From Treponema sp. (GTDB lineage Bacteria > Spirochaetota > Spirochaetia > Treponematales > Treponemataceae), in the NCBI GenBank assembly GCA_024698325.1, contig JAILRG010000076.1, forward strand, positions 1-64,000: 64,000 bases of DNA, read 5' to 3'. Made by a program: the position numbers and the translations under genes. This document shows positions 1,773 to 7,984 of the stretch, one piece after another. Within the stretch, counting starts at the first letter, position 1; each line of letters starts with the position of its first letter. The notes beneath the pieces were generated by a model that searched no databases, had not been told where the DNA came from, and saw nothing but the letters and a program-made list of their open reading frames with translations.

Positions 1773-1891
1773 TTCAAGGGGCAGAGCCCCTTGAAGCGTG
1801 CCGGGAAGAGGTGGGGGCTAAAATATATGCACGGACGAAATTGCGCAGCAATTTCGTAGTTGAGATAAACGACATGGAGGTCGTTTATCTC
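1773..1891. repeat. Array of three perfect hairpins between mutS2 and argR
   Basis: Three consecutive perfect inverted repeats with unrelated stems: 1773-1795 (10-bp arms TTCAAGGGGC, loop AGA), 1835-1857 (10-bp arms ACGAAATTGC, loop GCA) and 1862-1891 (12-bp arms GAGATAAACGAC, loop ATGGAG). The last one overlaps the mutS2 stop codon (1885-1887). None has the U-tract of a classical terminator, though they may block transcript decay or read-through. Confidence 0.75.
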
Positions 1892-4584
1892 ATACTAACA
1901 TATGTCTTCCCGGTGCCGCCTTCTTCGGGGCGTGCAAAGTGGAACTCGGCGACGCCGGGGTAGCTGGCCAGGTAGTCCTGGACGGCCTGCTGCAGGACGC
2001 CGGTGCCTTTTCCGTGTACGATGCTGAATGATTTGAAGTTCTGGAGCGTGCACAGGTCAAGCTGGCGTTCGAGGACTTTGACGGCTTCTTCTGCCCTCAT
2101 GCCGAGGAGCTTTAACTCGAAGACGGGGCGTGCTTCCGCACTGCTTTTCATGAAGATGGCGTTCTCGCCGTCTGGTGCGGAGGAAAGCTCTATGCTGACG
2201 CTTGCTTTTTGCGGGGCGCTTGAGCCTTCCGTGGGAACGAGTACCATGTCGCGCTCTTTTACAGACATGCGGATGGCGCCTAGCTGTACAGTCCACACGC
2301 CGCGGCGCTCTTCGCGAATAAGGGTACCGCGTGTGCGGGAGGGGCCTGCAAATACTTCAGCTCCAGGTTCCCATACGGGCGTTGGCACGGCTTCTTTTTT
2401 GCGTGCGTCTTTTGGCGTAAGCTGTGCAATAAGCGCATCGCTGTAGGTGCTTTTTGCGGCGGCGAATGCCTCTTTGTTGCTTGCGCGCGACTTTTTCTTG
2501 CTCTTTCCGGCAGTGCGCCTGCCGCTTTCGCCGGGCAGGATGAGTATGCCGTTATCGCTCCTGACGCCGCGCTCTTTTTCGGCCGCGGCAGAGCGTGCCT
2601 GTTTTTCCAGCGCGGCTTTGCGCGCATCGAGTGCGGCTTCTTCATCTTCTAGCAGCTTTTCTGAAGCTTCTTCGGCTTTTCCCAGCTCTGTGATAAAAGC
2701 TTTTGCGCGGAGCGTTTTCTCGCGCGTAATCTCACCTTCACGCAAGGTCCGGATTAGGTTTTCAAGACGGCGGCGGGTTTCGGCGACAAAGCGCGAGTCG
2801 GCTCTCTTTTCCCGCTCTTTAATTTCATGCTCGTTCTGCTTAAGGCGAAGCTCTAAAAGATCAAGCTTACGCTGCTTTTCGTTCTGTGCTCTTTCCCGGT
2901 TTTTGTGCTCTAAGAGTATACGGTCAGCTTCGGCGTGCTTTTCGACAAGGCCGTTAATCAGCTTGCTTACGTCTGCCTGCTCGTTTACCAGATAGCTCTT
3001 TGCCTGCGAAAGCACATCGGCGGGAAGGCCGCTGTGTGTGGCGATGTCGAGTGCGTGACTTTCGCCGGGAATGCCCATGCGGAGGCGGTAGGTGGGCTTG
3101 AGCGTTTCTGCGTCAAAGTCGACCGAGGCGTTTATGCAGGCGGCGTTTGTGTAGCCGTAGTTTTTTAAGATGCCGTGGTGGGTCGTCACAAGCACAAAGG
3201 CACCGCGCGCGATGAGTGCGTCGAGCACGGCCATGGCTATGGCGCCGCCTTCCTGCGGGTCTGTGCCGCTTGCAAGCTCGTCTAGGAGCACAAGGCTTTC
3301 GGCGGTCGCACCGCAGGAGATGTCGAGGGCGGAGGCAATGTTTTTCATGTGGGCACTGAATGTCGAAAGCGATTGGTCGATGCTCTGCTCGTCTCCGATG
3401 TCTGCGAATACGTTGTCAAAAAGCGGAAGACGGGTGCCGTCGGATGCCGGGACGGGAAAGCCTGCCTGGTTCAGCATGGCAAAAAGCGCAAATGTTTTTA
3501 GCGTGACAGTCTTTCCGCCTGTGTTCGGCCCGGTGATGATGAGCACGCGCTTTTCCGGCAGGCAGCGTATGTCAATCGGGACGGCCTTGCTTCCTAAAAG
3601 CGGGTGCCGTGCCTGCAGCAAAAGCGGGGGCAGGACCTCGCCGCGGTTATCTCTGCTTCCGGTGCATTCGAGCGCATATACGGCGCGGTGTGCTTCTCCC
3701 CATCGTGAAGCGGCAAGCGTTGTATCTAAAAAAAGCATGATGGAAAGCGCTTGGCGCAAATCTTCGGCAAGCGGCTTAATCTGTGCGGTCGTCTCGGCGC
3801 AAATTTTTCGCGTTTCTGCGAGCAGGTGAAACTCTTCCTGCACAAGCTCGTTGTTTTTGCGCACGACTTCTTCCGGCTCGATGTAGACGGTCTGGCCGCT
3901 TTGGCTTACCTCATGCACGATGCCATGAACGCGCGACTTTTGCGAAGCCTTTACTGCAAGCACCTGCCGGTCAGCTCGGTATGCGGGTACGTTCGCCTCG
4001 AGCACATTCGTTAAAAGCGAGGTATCGCTTGTGTAGCGCTTTATCTCGCGTTCTATGTCGGCGTGAATCTTTGCGATTTTTGCGCGGATTTCGCGCAGGG
4101 CGGGAAGGTCGCGCAGCTGGCCGTCTTTGTCGAGGATGCGGTCGATTGCGTTCACGGCTTCTAATGCCGCCTGCGTGGGAAGAAGCGCCGTTTTTTCAGG
4201 CAGGCGCTTTAAGGAAAGCAGCGGCGAACGGGATTCGACCATGTGTCTGACCGAAAGCACGCTGCGCGAAAAAGTGAGCACGTCGTAAAGCTGGGTGGTG
4301 TCGAGGGCTGCTCCCTCAGCACTTGCAAGGTACAGGCTCTGCCTTACCGGCTGCCAGCCCTCTAAAAGCGTGCCGCTCCTTGCTGCCTGCGCGCTTTGCG
4401 CGTCGTTCATGAGAGCCATCCAGTCTTCGCCGGTCTCTTTAAGCTCGATTATCGCCTCGTGGTCAGCGGGAGGAAGCGGATCCCGATGTAAAAGTGCGTC
4501 TTTTCCTTCAGGGCTTACGCACCATCCGCTTATGTCTTCTCGTATCGTGTAAAAGGCAAGTTCGTCTAAGGTCTTCGTGTTCAT
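1885..4584 (-). CDS. mutS2: Endonuclease MutS2
   Basis: The 899-residue product has the MutS2 architecture: a MutS-like core, a Walker A GPNTGGKT at 352-359, a Walker B LVLLDE near 431-436 followed by LASGTDP, a long charged coiled-coil region (about 520-720), and a C-terminal Smr nuclease domain with HGKGTGVLQ near residue 863. It lacks the mismatch-recognition domain of MutS. The family acts on recombination intermediates and, in Bacillus, on collided ribosomes. It is longer than the usual 780 residues or so, mostly in the Lys/Ala/Glu-rich linker before the Smr domain. The gene lies 38 bp downstream of rsgA in the same direction, and no clear Shine-Dalgarno sequence precedes its ATG. Confidence 0.95.
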   Translation of the reverse strand: MNTKTLDELAFYTIREDISGWCVSPEGKDALLHRDPLPPADHEAIIELKETGEDWMALMNDAQSAQAARSGTLLEGWQPVRQSLYLASAEGAALDTTQLYDVLTFSRSVLSVRHMVESRSPLLSLKRLPEKTALLPTQAALEAVNAIDRILDKDGQLRDLPALREIRAKIAKIHADIEREIKRYTSDTSLLTNVLEANVPAYRADRQVLAVKASQKSRVHGIVHEVSQSGQTVYIEPEEVVRKNNELVQEEFHLLAETRKICAETTAQIKPLAEDLRQALSIMLFLDTTLAASRWGEAHRAVYALECTGSRDNRGEVLPPLLLQARHPLLGSKAVPIDIRCLPEKRVLIITGPNTGGKTVTLKTFALFAMLNQAGFPVPASDGTRLPLFDNVFADIGDEQSIDQSLSTFSAHMKNIASALDISCGATAESLVLLDELASGTDPQEGGAIAMAVLDALIARGAFVLVTTHHGILKNYGYTNAACINASVDFDAETLKPTYRLRMGIPGESHALDIATHSGLPADVLSQAKSYLVNEQADVSKLINGLVEKHAEADRILLEHKNRERAQNEKQRKLDLLELRLKQNEHEIKEREKRADSRFVAETRRRLENLIRTLREGEITREKTLRAKAFITELGKAEEASEKLLEDEEAALDARKAALEKQARSAAAEKERGVRSDNGILILPGESGRRTAGKSKKKSRASNKEAFAAAKSTYSDALIAQLTPKDARKKEAVPTPVWEPGAEVFAGPSRTRGTLIREERRGVWTVQLGAIRMSVKERDMVLVPTEGSSAPQKASVSIELSSAPDGENAIFMKSSAEARPVFELKLLGMRAEEAVKVLERQLDLCTLQNFKSFSIVHGKGTGVLQQAVQDYLASYPGVAEFHFARPEEGGTGKTYVSMR

Positions 4585-4622: not shown

Positions 4623-5618
4623 TTAGTCGCTCCAGCTTCCCGTGCGGATTTCTTCGGCGATGCGCTTCCAGCTGTCGTAGCGCTCTTCGCTTACAGCGCC
4701 AGCATAGACGGCCTCGAGGATTTTGCAGCCGGCCTCGCTGTTGTGGGTACAGCTTAAGCCGTAGGTGCATTTTCCTACCAGCGGCCGCATTTCGCGGAAA
4801 TACAGTGCTAAATCAGTTGATTCGATGTCGTGCAGCACAAAACGGCGTACGCCGGGTGTGTCGATTATCGACGCATACACGTTTGAAAGTCCGTCTACAA
4901 GCGACTCATTCAAATGAATGTGCATGAGTGAGCCTTTTGTCGTCGTGTGCGTGCCGCGGCCGTATTTTTGAGAAAGGCTTCCCGTGCGCAGTACACATGC
5001 GGAGTCCAGCACATTTATCAGACTTGATTTTCCAACGCCGCTTTGTCCCACAAAGGCAGAAAGCTTATTCTGTAAAAGTTCTGCCAGTTCCGTCATGCCC
5101 TCGCCGGTTTTTGCCGAAACGCGGATGACTCGGTAGCCGATGTCCTGCCAGATGGAAAGCCTGTTTTGAAAATCCATGTCCTGAGAAGAATCCAGGTCGT
5201 ATTTGTTTACAAGAATTATAGGATTGAGTTCCTGATATTCAGCCTGCGCTAATTCGCGGTCAATAAAGCGGGCGCGAAAGGGAGGCTCATCTGGAGTGGT
5301 TACCAGGACCAGATTGTCGATATTTGCTGCAAGGATCTGCGGACAGCGCCCCTTTACATTCCACCGCACGAATTTGTTTTTGCGGGGAAGGAGCGAAAGA
5401 ATCTGGCCTTTGTGTGCATCCAGTTCATCTTCTTCTATTTCAACCCGGTCGCCGGGCGCAAGCGGATTGTAATACTTTATGTCGGTAGTAAGCCGCTTGC
5501 TTTTGAGCGTGCATGAACGTATATGAGGGCCGCTCGAAGCGTCTCCTCCCGCGTCGTCACATTCCACATCGAATACATTGTTGCTGCCGTCTAAGACGGT
5601 GCCGGTAACAGTTCCCAT
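4623..5618 (-). CDS. rsgA: Ribosome small-subunit GTPase RsgA
   Basis: The 331-residue product shows the circularly permuted GTPase order of RsgA (YjeQ/EngC): an N-terminal OB-fold, then NKYD (G4, about residue 138), then GQSGVGKSS (G1, about 191), then DTPG (G3, about 253). The C-terminal zinc motif is visible as CTYGLSCTHNSEAGC, giving the Cys/Cys/His/Cys ligands. RsgA helps late maturation of the 30S subunit. TTGCGT, 17 nt and TAACAT lie just upstream with only 9 nt between -10 box and ATG and no Shine-Dalgarno, so the leader is at most 2-3 nt. mutS2 follows as a probable operon partner. Confidence 0.95.
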   Translation of the reverse strand: MGTVTGTVLDGSNNVFDVECDDAGGDASSGPHIRSCTLKSKRLTTDIKYYNPLAPGDRVEIEEDELDAHKGQILSLLPRKNKFVRWNVKGRCPQILAANIDNLVLVTTPDEPPFRARFIDRELAQAEYQELNPIILVNKYDLDSSQDMDFQNRLSIWQDIGYRVIRVSAKTGEGMTELAELLQNKLSAFVGQSGVGKSSLINVLDSACVLRTGSLSQKYGRGTHTTTKGSLMHIHLNESLVDGLSNVYASIIDTPGVRRFVLHDIESTDLALYFREMRPLVGKCTYGLSCTHNSEAGCKILEAVYAGAVSEERYDSWKRIAEEIRTGSWSD

Positions 5619-5656: not shown

Positions 5657-5722
5657 GAAGCACGGGCAAAGGTGTAGGCGGAAGGGCTTGCAGGCGTGGA
5701 AAGAGGAAGTATAAAAATAGTC

Positions 5723-5750
5723 TTGACGAAACGGGGGGGGGGTATATTCT
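5723..5750 (+). promoter_or_regulatory. Promoter with a G10 tract in its spacer
   Basis: TTGACG (5723-5728) is followed by AAAC and ten consecutive G (5733-5742), then TATATT (5743-5748; spacer 14) or TATTCT (5745-5750; spacer 16). A homopolymer of this length inside the -35/-10 spacer can change length by slipped-strand mispairing and so alter promoter strength. Comparable poly-G promoter tracts control tpr genes in Treponema pallidum. Confidence 0.7.
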
Positions 5751-5779
5751 TGTCCTCTATAAATTCAAGGAGAGACAGT

Positions 5780-7984
5780 ATGAAAAAAACTTGTTCTGTA
5801 TTGAAAGGGCTTCTGCTTTTAGGCATAGGAAGCCTCTTCTTCTCCTGCGACGGAATCGTTGCAGGAGACACGATTAACAGCTATGTAACGACAAAAGTGC
5901 AGGCTGTCAATATAACGGCAAACGCCTATCCGGGCGTTAACCTGCTGACCTGGAAAGCCGTAAATGATGTGGACAGCTACACCGTGTATCGTACGGTTTC
6001 TGGCGGACACATAGAGGAAGATGTGACCGAGAACGCTTCTCTGCGTTACTATTATGATACGGATATCCAGGAAGGAACGACCTACACCTATCGTATCGTT
6101 GCCCATCCTGCAGACAAAACGGTGCATGATGATTCTGAGAAAACCGTGACGCTGACCACTGCAAAAACTGCTGCAGAAGGTGAGAATCTGCGTGGTACCT
6201 GGGCGCCGGAAACAACGGTATTCAGAGAGCTTGCCAACTATGAGGTTTGGGATGGAGATTACACCGGCTCCACTGATGTTTCTGCACAGCTTCTGAAGAA
6301 AGCTGGAAACATTGTGCGGGCAAGCTTTGCGGTAAAACCTTATGCAAAATACACCGTATATCTGAGCACGGCCGGTCAGTACTACGGTGTATACCTTGGT
6401 AACGAAACGCTTTGCGAAGACAAAGTCTCTTTCTTTGGTTTTGAATATGATAAAACTGCAACCGTAGACCTTACGGCGCTCTATGGCAGCCAAAAGGTGG
6501 TGACGGTCGTTGCAACTCCACTGAATGAAACGCTCTATGGAAGCTCCTATTTTAATTCATCAACGATAACCGTTCCTTTGTTTGCTGATACGCCTACTGC
6601 TGTTGCCCTGGATGACAGTGGAAATCCGCTTATCAGTGCTATGTGGACGAACAGTGGTTCCTATTCTGCAACAGCCCGTGTGTCTTTTTCTCCCTATGTG
6701 TCTGGTGGAGAAGAATGTCCAGTAAGCGAGTACAGCATTTATACGGCATGTTACACAAGCACTGGAGAGCTTGTTATGCGTGAGTCCCCCATCGGCGAAG
6801 GGAGAACAATAGTGCATGCAGAAATATCGTCTTATAACCCAATTTCTAAAGATAGTGATAAAACAACGGAAAGCCAGAGTGTATATTATCGCGACATAAC
6901 TGTAGATAAAAGCATTGAAGGCCTTTCGACCGTACGCATCTATGTGGTTCTCAATCATTACGGCTCTCTTGCTACCAGCACCATTGATCTGAGCCTGCCG
7001 GATACAGCAGACGCTGACTGGGGCTATAAGCCGTACACAGATACGAGCGCAGTATCAACCATTGCTATTACCGATGTTGTCATCAATACAGACGGCAGCG
7101 TAAGCATTACGGCAAAAACTAATTATTCCTACTTAGACGGGATAAGCTGTTCATTTGGTTCTTTCAGTACTAAAAATGCAGCCCTTGCCTCTGTCAGCGG
7201 AGAGCTTTCGACAGCACTGACGGTATCGAAGGAAAGTGACTATGTATGGACGGCGAAAACGTCCACAGATGCACTGGAAGGCGAAAAATACTATGTATTC
7301 CGCTGTGCATATACACACTGGGGAACTGCTGTAGATCTGTTTATTGCAAGAGTGCATTGTGTAAATCAGGAACAGAAGGTGTATTACTGGGAAGTTGTGC
7401 CGGGCTATGAACCGGAAAACTATGAGGAGCTGGGAACGCTGTCGGTAGCCTTTGAGCCTGACATAACGGATGCAACATATAATGCCATCACCATACGCTG
7501 TGAGGCAGAGAATGCGGTCCGTTATTTTTTAGCAGCCAGCCGGTATTCTTATAGTTCTTCTTATGATTGGACTCAGATTATAACAGACGCCGGGTACCGG
7601 GATGAATCTGTTGCTGGAAAAAGCTCTGCCTCCTTATACTACACTGTTGCTGCTGTCGGTAATTACGGCGGTGCCACGGTAAAGTGTTCTAACGGTACGA
7701 TTAAGGTTCCGGTTGTATCGTTTGACAGCGCAACAAAAACGCTGTCATGGGACGCTGTTTCAACTGCAGCCGGATACTATGTCTATTGTGCAGAGTCGGA
7801 AGCAGAACTTTCCTCATGCTCACTGACAGATGAAAACGTTGTCCTTGTAAGCGGTATAAGCTATACTATTCCGGATAGTGCTTTGACTGCTGGCGACCGC
7901 TACTTTGCAGTAAGGGCATACAAAAAAATTGATGATGCATATGTGTATTCAGCGTTAAGCACTGCATATCACGCTGAAAACTAA
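5780..7984 (+). CDS. Large FN3-like surface lipoprotein, probably phase-variable
   Basis: I start this 734-residue protein at the ATG at 5780, where AAGGAG gives a ribosome-binding site; an upstream extension to 5696 would cross the promoter. A lipoprotein signal peptide of about 22 residues ends in the lipobox LFFSC. The mature part has fibronectin type III-like modules: LLTWKAVNDVDSYTVYR near the N-terminus and LSWDAVSTAAGYYVYC near the C-terminus, with beta-rich sequence between. There are no catalytic motifs I recognise. It is probably exposed at the cell surface or in the periplasm, and its function is unknown. The promoter carries a G10 tract. It is transcribed alone and ends at a strong terminator shared with the convergent cstA-type gene. 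Confidence 0.8.
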   Translation: MKKTCSVLKGLLLLGIGSLFFSCDGIVAGDTINSYVTTKVQAVNITANAYPGVNLLTWKAVNDVDSYTVYRTVSGGHIEEDVTENASLRYYYDTDIQEGTTYTYRIVAHPADKTVHDDSEKTVTLTTAKTAAEGENLRGTWAPETTVFRELANYEVWDGDYTGSTDVSAQLLKKAGNIVRASFAVKPYAKYTVYLSTAGQYYGVYLGNETLCEDKVSFFGFEYDKTATVDLTALYGSQKVVTVVATPLNETLYGSSYFNSSTITVPLFADTPTAVALDDSGNPLISAMWTNSGSYSATARVSFSPYVSGGEECPVSEYSIYTACYTSTGELVMRESPIGEGRTIVHAEISSYNPISKDSDKTTESQSVYYRDITVDKSIEGLSTVRIYVVLNHYGSLATSTIDLSLPDTADADWGYKPYTDTSAVSTIAITDVVINTDGSVSITAKTNYSYLDGISCSFGSFSTKNAALASVSGELSTALTVSKESDYVWTAKTSTDALEGEKYYVFRCAYTHWGTAVDLFIARVHCVNQEQKVYYWEVVPGYEPENYEELGTLSVAFEPDITDATYNAITIRCEAENAVRYFLAASRYSYSSSYDWTQIITDAGYRDESVAGKSSASLYYTVAAVGNYGGATVKCSNGTIKVPVVSFDSATKTLSWDAVSTAAGYYVYCAESEAELSSCSLTDENVVLVSGISYTIPDSALTAGDRYFAVRAYKKIDDAYVYSALSTAYHAEN

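Follow-up and report, generated by a model that had tools for sequence, protein, structure and literature searches.

Whether the run of ten Gs upstream of a lipoprotein gene in the genome of this uncultured Treponema belongs to a length-variable promoter switch, or is an incidental part of an ordinary promoter, is the question raised by this locus. Among treponemes, promoters switched by poly-G have been described mainly in T. pallidum, the agent of syphilis, at a few outer-membrane genes, and are usually linked to immune evasion. The analysis covered the window (the whole 64-kb stretch of DNA), the remaining contigs of the same genome, and related genomes of the genus, family and order.

Layout of the promoter

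The promoter and the gene that it precedes lie on the forward strand. The -35 element TTGACG (5723-5728, five of six positions matching TTGACA) is followed by AAAC, the fixed part of the spacer as read from the sequence (5729-5732), and by the ten-G homopolymer (5733-5742), the proposed hypermutable tract, identified by its sequence and by the pattern found in the genus. Two -10 hexamers overlap downstream: TATATT (5743-5748, 5/6) abuts the tract and has a 14-bp spacer at 10 G, while TATTCT (5745-5750, 4/6) has a 16-bp spacer. TATATT is the likelier -10, since TA directly follows the last G in about nine of ten tracts among the genus sites listed. The span 5723-5750 given in the earlier note corresponds exactly to TTGACG-16-TATTCT, and the layout described there was confirmed base by base. 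A homopolymer of at least eight between -35 and -10, which characterises promoters of the tp0126/porA type, is present, and slippage could bring either spacing to the 17-bp optimum.

In a consensus scan, 5723-5750 was the sole promoter-like site near the start of the lipoprotein gene. A Shine-Dalgarno sequence, AAGGAGAG, is found at 5767-5774, and the Rfam search returned a sub-threshold match only and no RNA element. The divergent neighbour rsgA (4623-5618, reverse strand) bounds the 161-bp intergenic region and is outside the switch. Adjoining rsgA and the tract is mutS2 (1885-4584 of the window; TIGR01069, 694 bits).

The lipoprotein and its relatives

The gene starts at ATG 5780 and extends to 7984 on the forward strand; it encodes a protein of 734 amino acids with distant homologues only and an FN3-like region at residues 53-112. 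The N-terminus, MKKTCSVLKGLLLLGIGSLFFSCDG, is a lipoprotein signal peptide. The signal peptide itself (MKKTCSVLKGLLLLGIGSLFFS, 5780-5848) ends in a lipobox with Cys23 and Asp at +2, and the lipobox residues are conserved in the homologue from genome G020. As is typical of bacterial lipoproteins, MKKTCSVLKGLLLLGIGSLFFSC combines a positive n-region, a hydrophobic core and the lipobox Cys, all kept in the homologue. With a single promoter candidate and a lipobox, the placement of the tract inside the promoter spacer of a lipoprotein gene is borne out. The product had also been called FN3-like, and here only sub-threshold matches were obtained: the fn3 profile scored 19.3 bits against a curated Pfam cut-off of 25, and the Fn3-like 3mpc profile matched at its positions 56-110 (E 4.5e-4). 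The single-sequence AF2 model was unusable (pLDDT 33). There was no match to a Tpr family porin in Pfam or NCBIfam, and the label 'surface antigen' exceeds what the sequence of this protein supports.

The search of genome contigs found neither a same-species strain nor a syntenic orthologue of the lipoprotein. Among 58 related genomes there is one full-length homologue (G020, 41% identity), as well as weak partial ones. The promoter spacer of the G020 homologue carries T9 where the window locus has G10; a weaker relative, L029 (G006), has TTGACA-AATACAATA-G10 upstream. The neighbourhoods of rsgA relatives (n=26) contain other genes and no G tract.

G runs in the window and in the genome

Under a first-order Markov model of the 64-kb window, 0.015 G runs of at least 10 are expected and one is observed. 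The window contains only one further G run of at least 6, and C runs of at least 6 are absent against 4.8 expected. In the whole genome, 10 runs of at least 9 are found against about 5 expected (an expectation extrapolated from the dinucleotides of the window). The raw number of G runs was dropped as evidence, being merely about twice the expectation, and the argument is built on the placement of the tracts instead of their count.

The genome holds 16 runs of at least 8, and some of these also belong to lipoprotein genes. At L012 there is a second lipoprotein promoter, TTGACA-18-TAAGAT, with G9 in the spacer and the product MKKLLFQIPVAALTALAFLFTSCSNN. Four further lipoprotein genes (L018, L019, L021 and L023) have G8-G12 within the codons of the signal peptide: those of L018 and L021 (9 G each) are in frame, and those of L019 (12 G) and L023 (8 G) are out of frame, although the lipobox frame otherwise stays open over 248 codons in L019 and over at least 499 in L023. 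The leaders of L018 and L023 are related (MKQLYK...) but differ in run length, and one is in frame where the other is not; to judge from their sequences, this pair resembles contingency loci. The window locus is one unit of a set in the same genome, together with the second lipoprotein promoter and the four signal-peptide tracts. A lipoprotein family of another genome, G184 (...SCENFF...; L177, L178, L190 and L191), also has poly-G in the signal peptide: three copies have G9 in frame and one has G10, which is not in frame.

Distribution of the layout across the genus and family

The nearest relatives in the rsgA search are rumen, gut and other Treponema, many of them uncultured. Two patterns were searched, each against its own reversal as a control: a loose one (TTGA, 4-18 nt, G8 or more, 0-4 nt, TA) and a strict one (TTGAC, 4-14 nt, G8 or more, TA). 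Overlapping matches of a single site were counted repeatedly, in the observed and control counts alike. Across 200 genus genomes, the loose pattern was found 516 times against 106 in the control; by genome, it was above the control in 113 and below it in 14. With the strict pattern, 80 genus genomes gave 200 matches against 3. Outside the genus, the counts were 81 against 1 for the family's other genera (38 genomes) and 43 against 12 for other families of the order (176 genomes). The placement is above chance in this lineage, as expected of phase-variable promoters (strict pattern, 80 genus genomes), and what had been read from a single site as the layout of phase-variable genes recurs in the genus and family far above the control. 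Related treponemes of the gut and of hosts have look-alike promoters in their hundreds, which points to an on/off (phase-variation) switch common to them.

The family's other genera also have a second promoter design, in which TTGACA is followed after about 17 bp by a -10 and then by C8-C16 abutting the -10 (for example L196, L208, L214 and L220 of G354; also G336, G310 and G344). This pattern is concentrated in genera g21 and g22 (reversed controls about 0) and is nearly absent from the genus of the window.

Spacer length and base composition of the tract

Among the 85 genus sites listed, tract-bearing spacers measure 10-24 bp, mostly 13-22, with a mode of 18-19, and the spacers of tract-free TTGACA/TATAAT pairs centre on 16-18 bp (n=109). 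At the same 85 sites, tract length and the rest of the spacer are uncorrelated (Spearman -0.07, p 0.52). Such independence in the genus is what drift in length would be expected to give, as opposed to selection of a single value. Compensation between prefix and tract, as selection for one fixed spacer would produce, is absent in the genus; it is weak in the family's other genera (rho -0.38, p 0.005), where the limits of the search pattern may contribute.

The search with C in place of G gave 135 matches against 126 in the control, i.e. no enrichment, and the contrast with the G search is strong (516/106 vs 135/126, Fisher p about 1e-20). Slippage and spacing are blind to the strand, and therefore another factor favours G on the non-template strand beside the -10. 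The preference may reflect an inherited cassette, or G at this place may aid the polymerase.

Variation in tract length

Tract lengths were compared between the sister genomes G021 and G222 in the 11 best tract pairs. The length differs in 4 of the 11, about six times the gap rate of the flanks (Fisher p 0.006; a rough count), and is equal in 7; in one further pair it is the neighbouring Cs that differ, and another tract has eroded. One promoter pair, L152 and L263, is 99.6% identical over 810 bp and free of gaps outside the tract, which has 10 G in the former and 9 G in the latter and sits in the spacer of a TTGACA-TAAGA promoter. Within G354, seven paralogous promoters with an identical TTGACTTTTGA prefix have 12, 13, 13, 13, 14, 14 and 15 G. 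Homopolymer errors of long reads could explain one length difference, but not the whole set.

Length differences are also found at other places than spacers. L136 (G021) and L268 (G222), 90% identical over 806 bp, have G11 and G10, respectively, where an orthologous gene begins; its product was assigned by eye from the translation as an undecaprenyl-phosphate sugar-transferase-like membrane protein. Near-identical transposase-like sequences (L149 of G021; L159 and L164 of G222) have G9, G12 and G10, respectively, at the same place.

Genes behind tract-bearing promoters

The genes were sampled behind tracts with a TTGAC -35 and a TA...T -10 in five genus members and G354, which gave 25 assignable downstream genes. 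A lipobox is found in 16 of the 25, against 5 of 273 background genes; a lipobox or another export-type start is found in 22 of the 25, against 26 of 273. The background was taken from rsgA neighbourhoods and is rough rather than genome-wide, and the classifier is a simple rule; the direction of the association with lipoproteins is clear, and the exact odds ratio is unsafe to use. Concerning other tracts, L171 (G222) lies at the start of a gene for an acyltransferase-like membrane protein. In G137, several contigs have a G run no more than about 1 kb from one of their ends, as though the flanks were repeats at which assembly breaks off.

Proposed mechanism and alternative explanations

We consider it probable that the ten-G tract is a hypermutable spacer and that slippage alters both the spacing and the expression of the lipoprotein. 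The promoter would be of the sigma-70 type, and slipped-strand mispairing at 5733-5742 would add or remove Gs; the distance from TTGACG to the -10 would therefore shift, the shifted distance would alter the binding of RNA polymerase, and the amount of lipoprotein would thereby come to differ among the cells of one population, with a presumed selective value. The assembly, at 10 G, probably captures a low or intermediate state, because 14 or 16 bp is off the 17-bp optimum, and longer tracts would be predicted to raise expression. As Gs are gained, TATTCT would be the first to reach 17 bp, with TATATT arriving at 16-17 bp after it, and a graded response is therefore possible. Three observations count against this reading. 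Several sister-genome tract pairs (7 of 11) are equal in length; conservation of the gene does not extend to the poly-G, the 41% identical homologue of G020 having T9 in its spacer; and a pure spacing mechanism predicts poly-C to be equally good, yet poly-C spacers are not enriched (135 vs 126).

The last point bears on the most serious of the alternatives, in which spacing is secondary and non-template G upstream of the -10 is a promoter element itself (an extended -10 G, a protein site or a DNA structure), with base identity tuning promoter strength. The enrichment for G and not C at the same place (516 vs 106 as against 135 vs 126), the almost constant abutment of the tract on the -10, and spacers that centre on 18-19 bp rather than the 16-18 of tract-free promoters are all in its favour. 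A few Gs would suffice for a contact, however, yet the tracts of relatives reach 17 G; length changes among near-identical sequences indicate instability, and descent of promoter cassettes could likewise yield a G bias. We therefore regard it as unlikely, though it deserves more weight than the remaining alternatives. Somewhat less likely still is a fixed promoter of the ordinary kind, in which the G run is incidental and its length does not vary meaningfully: G runs in the genome are just about twice as many as expected and several related tracts are equal in length across species, but the placement (200 vs 3) and the association with lipoproteins exclude chance for the class, and the window locus fits the class in every feature.

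The other two alternatives concern the reading of the site. The frame is open from GTG 5696 to 7984, in frame with the lipoprotein, and a tract inside such a coding region would switch translation by slippage. This is improbable: the Shine-Dalgarno sequence and ATG 5780 start a canonical signal peptide, which the extension would bury behind 28 residues, and the conserved part of the homologue likewise begins at the Met of ATG 5780. We attach the least weight of all to an error of metagenome assembly in the tract length. The genome is a draft of 148 contigs and homopolymers are error-prone, but a tract of about 10 G is plainly there, with clean promoter flanks, and an error of 1-2 G leaves the conclusion unchanged.

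Beyond the switch at this locus, a broader and more tentative proposal, which we hold to be possible but on balance doubtful, is that treponemes, commensal and host-associated, share a class of promoters with a G-only non-template homopolymer abutting the -10. These would make up a stochastic regulon of lipoproteins across the family, dependent on spacing as well as on G identity, the tract being a strand-specific element that doubles as a mutational switch.

Comparison with known systems

The earlier note had compared the locus with the tpr genes of T. pallidum. The comparison holds in that tprE/G/J and tprL also have promoter poly-G, and the length of theirs alters transcription (PMC7864442); as the closest precedent it gives way to tp0126 and porA. 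The tprL and tprE/G/J promoters follow rules other than that of tp0126, and for tprE/G/J eight or fewer Gs are permissive (PMC7864442), not a -35/-10 spacing optimum, whereas the window tract is squarely between the hexamers. Length variation is common in T. pallidum clones, where 24 of 46 poly-G/C tracts of at least 8 vary (PMC10013896).

Lists of G/C tracts are available for T. medium, T. phagedenis, T. pedis, T. ruminis, T. denticola and T. pallidum, and the commensal T. ruminis was concluded to have the fewest (PMC8049484). The accessible part of that census gives counts only, without spacer-embedded tracts or lipoprotein targets; in contrast, the commensal genus studied here is tract-rich. 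Within the open-licence papers searched, there seems to be no report of how widespread such tracts are among commensal treponemes, of their association with lipoproteins or of their restriction to G. The locus is of more interest as a way into the proposed regulon of the whole family than alone: poly-G switching appears to be old, common across the family and linked to lipoproteins, and uncultured lineages of the gut and rumen share it. Were this confirmed, surface bet-hedging would be ancestral in treponemes and not a pathogen trait, and cultured relatives would offer tractable systems for a mechanism that T. pallidum makes difficult to study. The asymmetry between G and C is a new and directly testable clue to how the tract works.

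In tp0126 of T. pallidum, poly-G lies between -35 and -10 and transcription is best at 17 nt (PMC7864442). The copy in G225 (taken as T. pallidum) reads ACAAACAGCCGT-G9-TAGAAT, with the same order of parts as the window locus. The products and lineages differ: tp0126 encodes an OmpW homologue, an outer-membrane barrel, in a pathogen, whereas the window product is a lipoprotein with an FN3-like region from a lineage that, among named relatives, is nearest to treponemes of the rumen and gut. In porA of Neisseria meningitidis the poly-G is also between -35 and -10, and 11G, 10G and 9G give high, intermediate and low expression, respectively (PMC3639595). This is a porin gene of another phylum, whereas the treponeme family uses the layout at many loci per genome. 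Like tprL, both tp0126 and porA are backed by experiments, and the window locus is known from its sequence. By its anatomy it would belong with these two promoters, and a slipped-strand, spacing-dependent promoter switch akin to theirs would best explain it.
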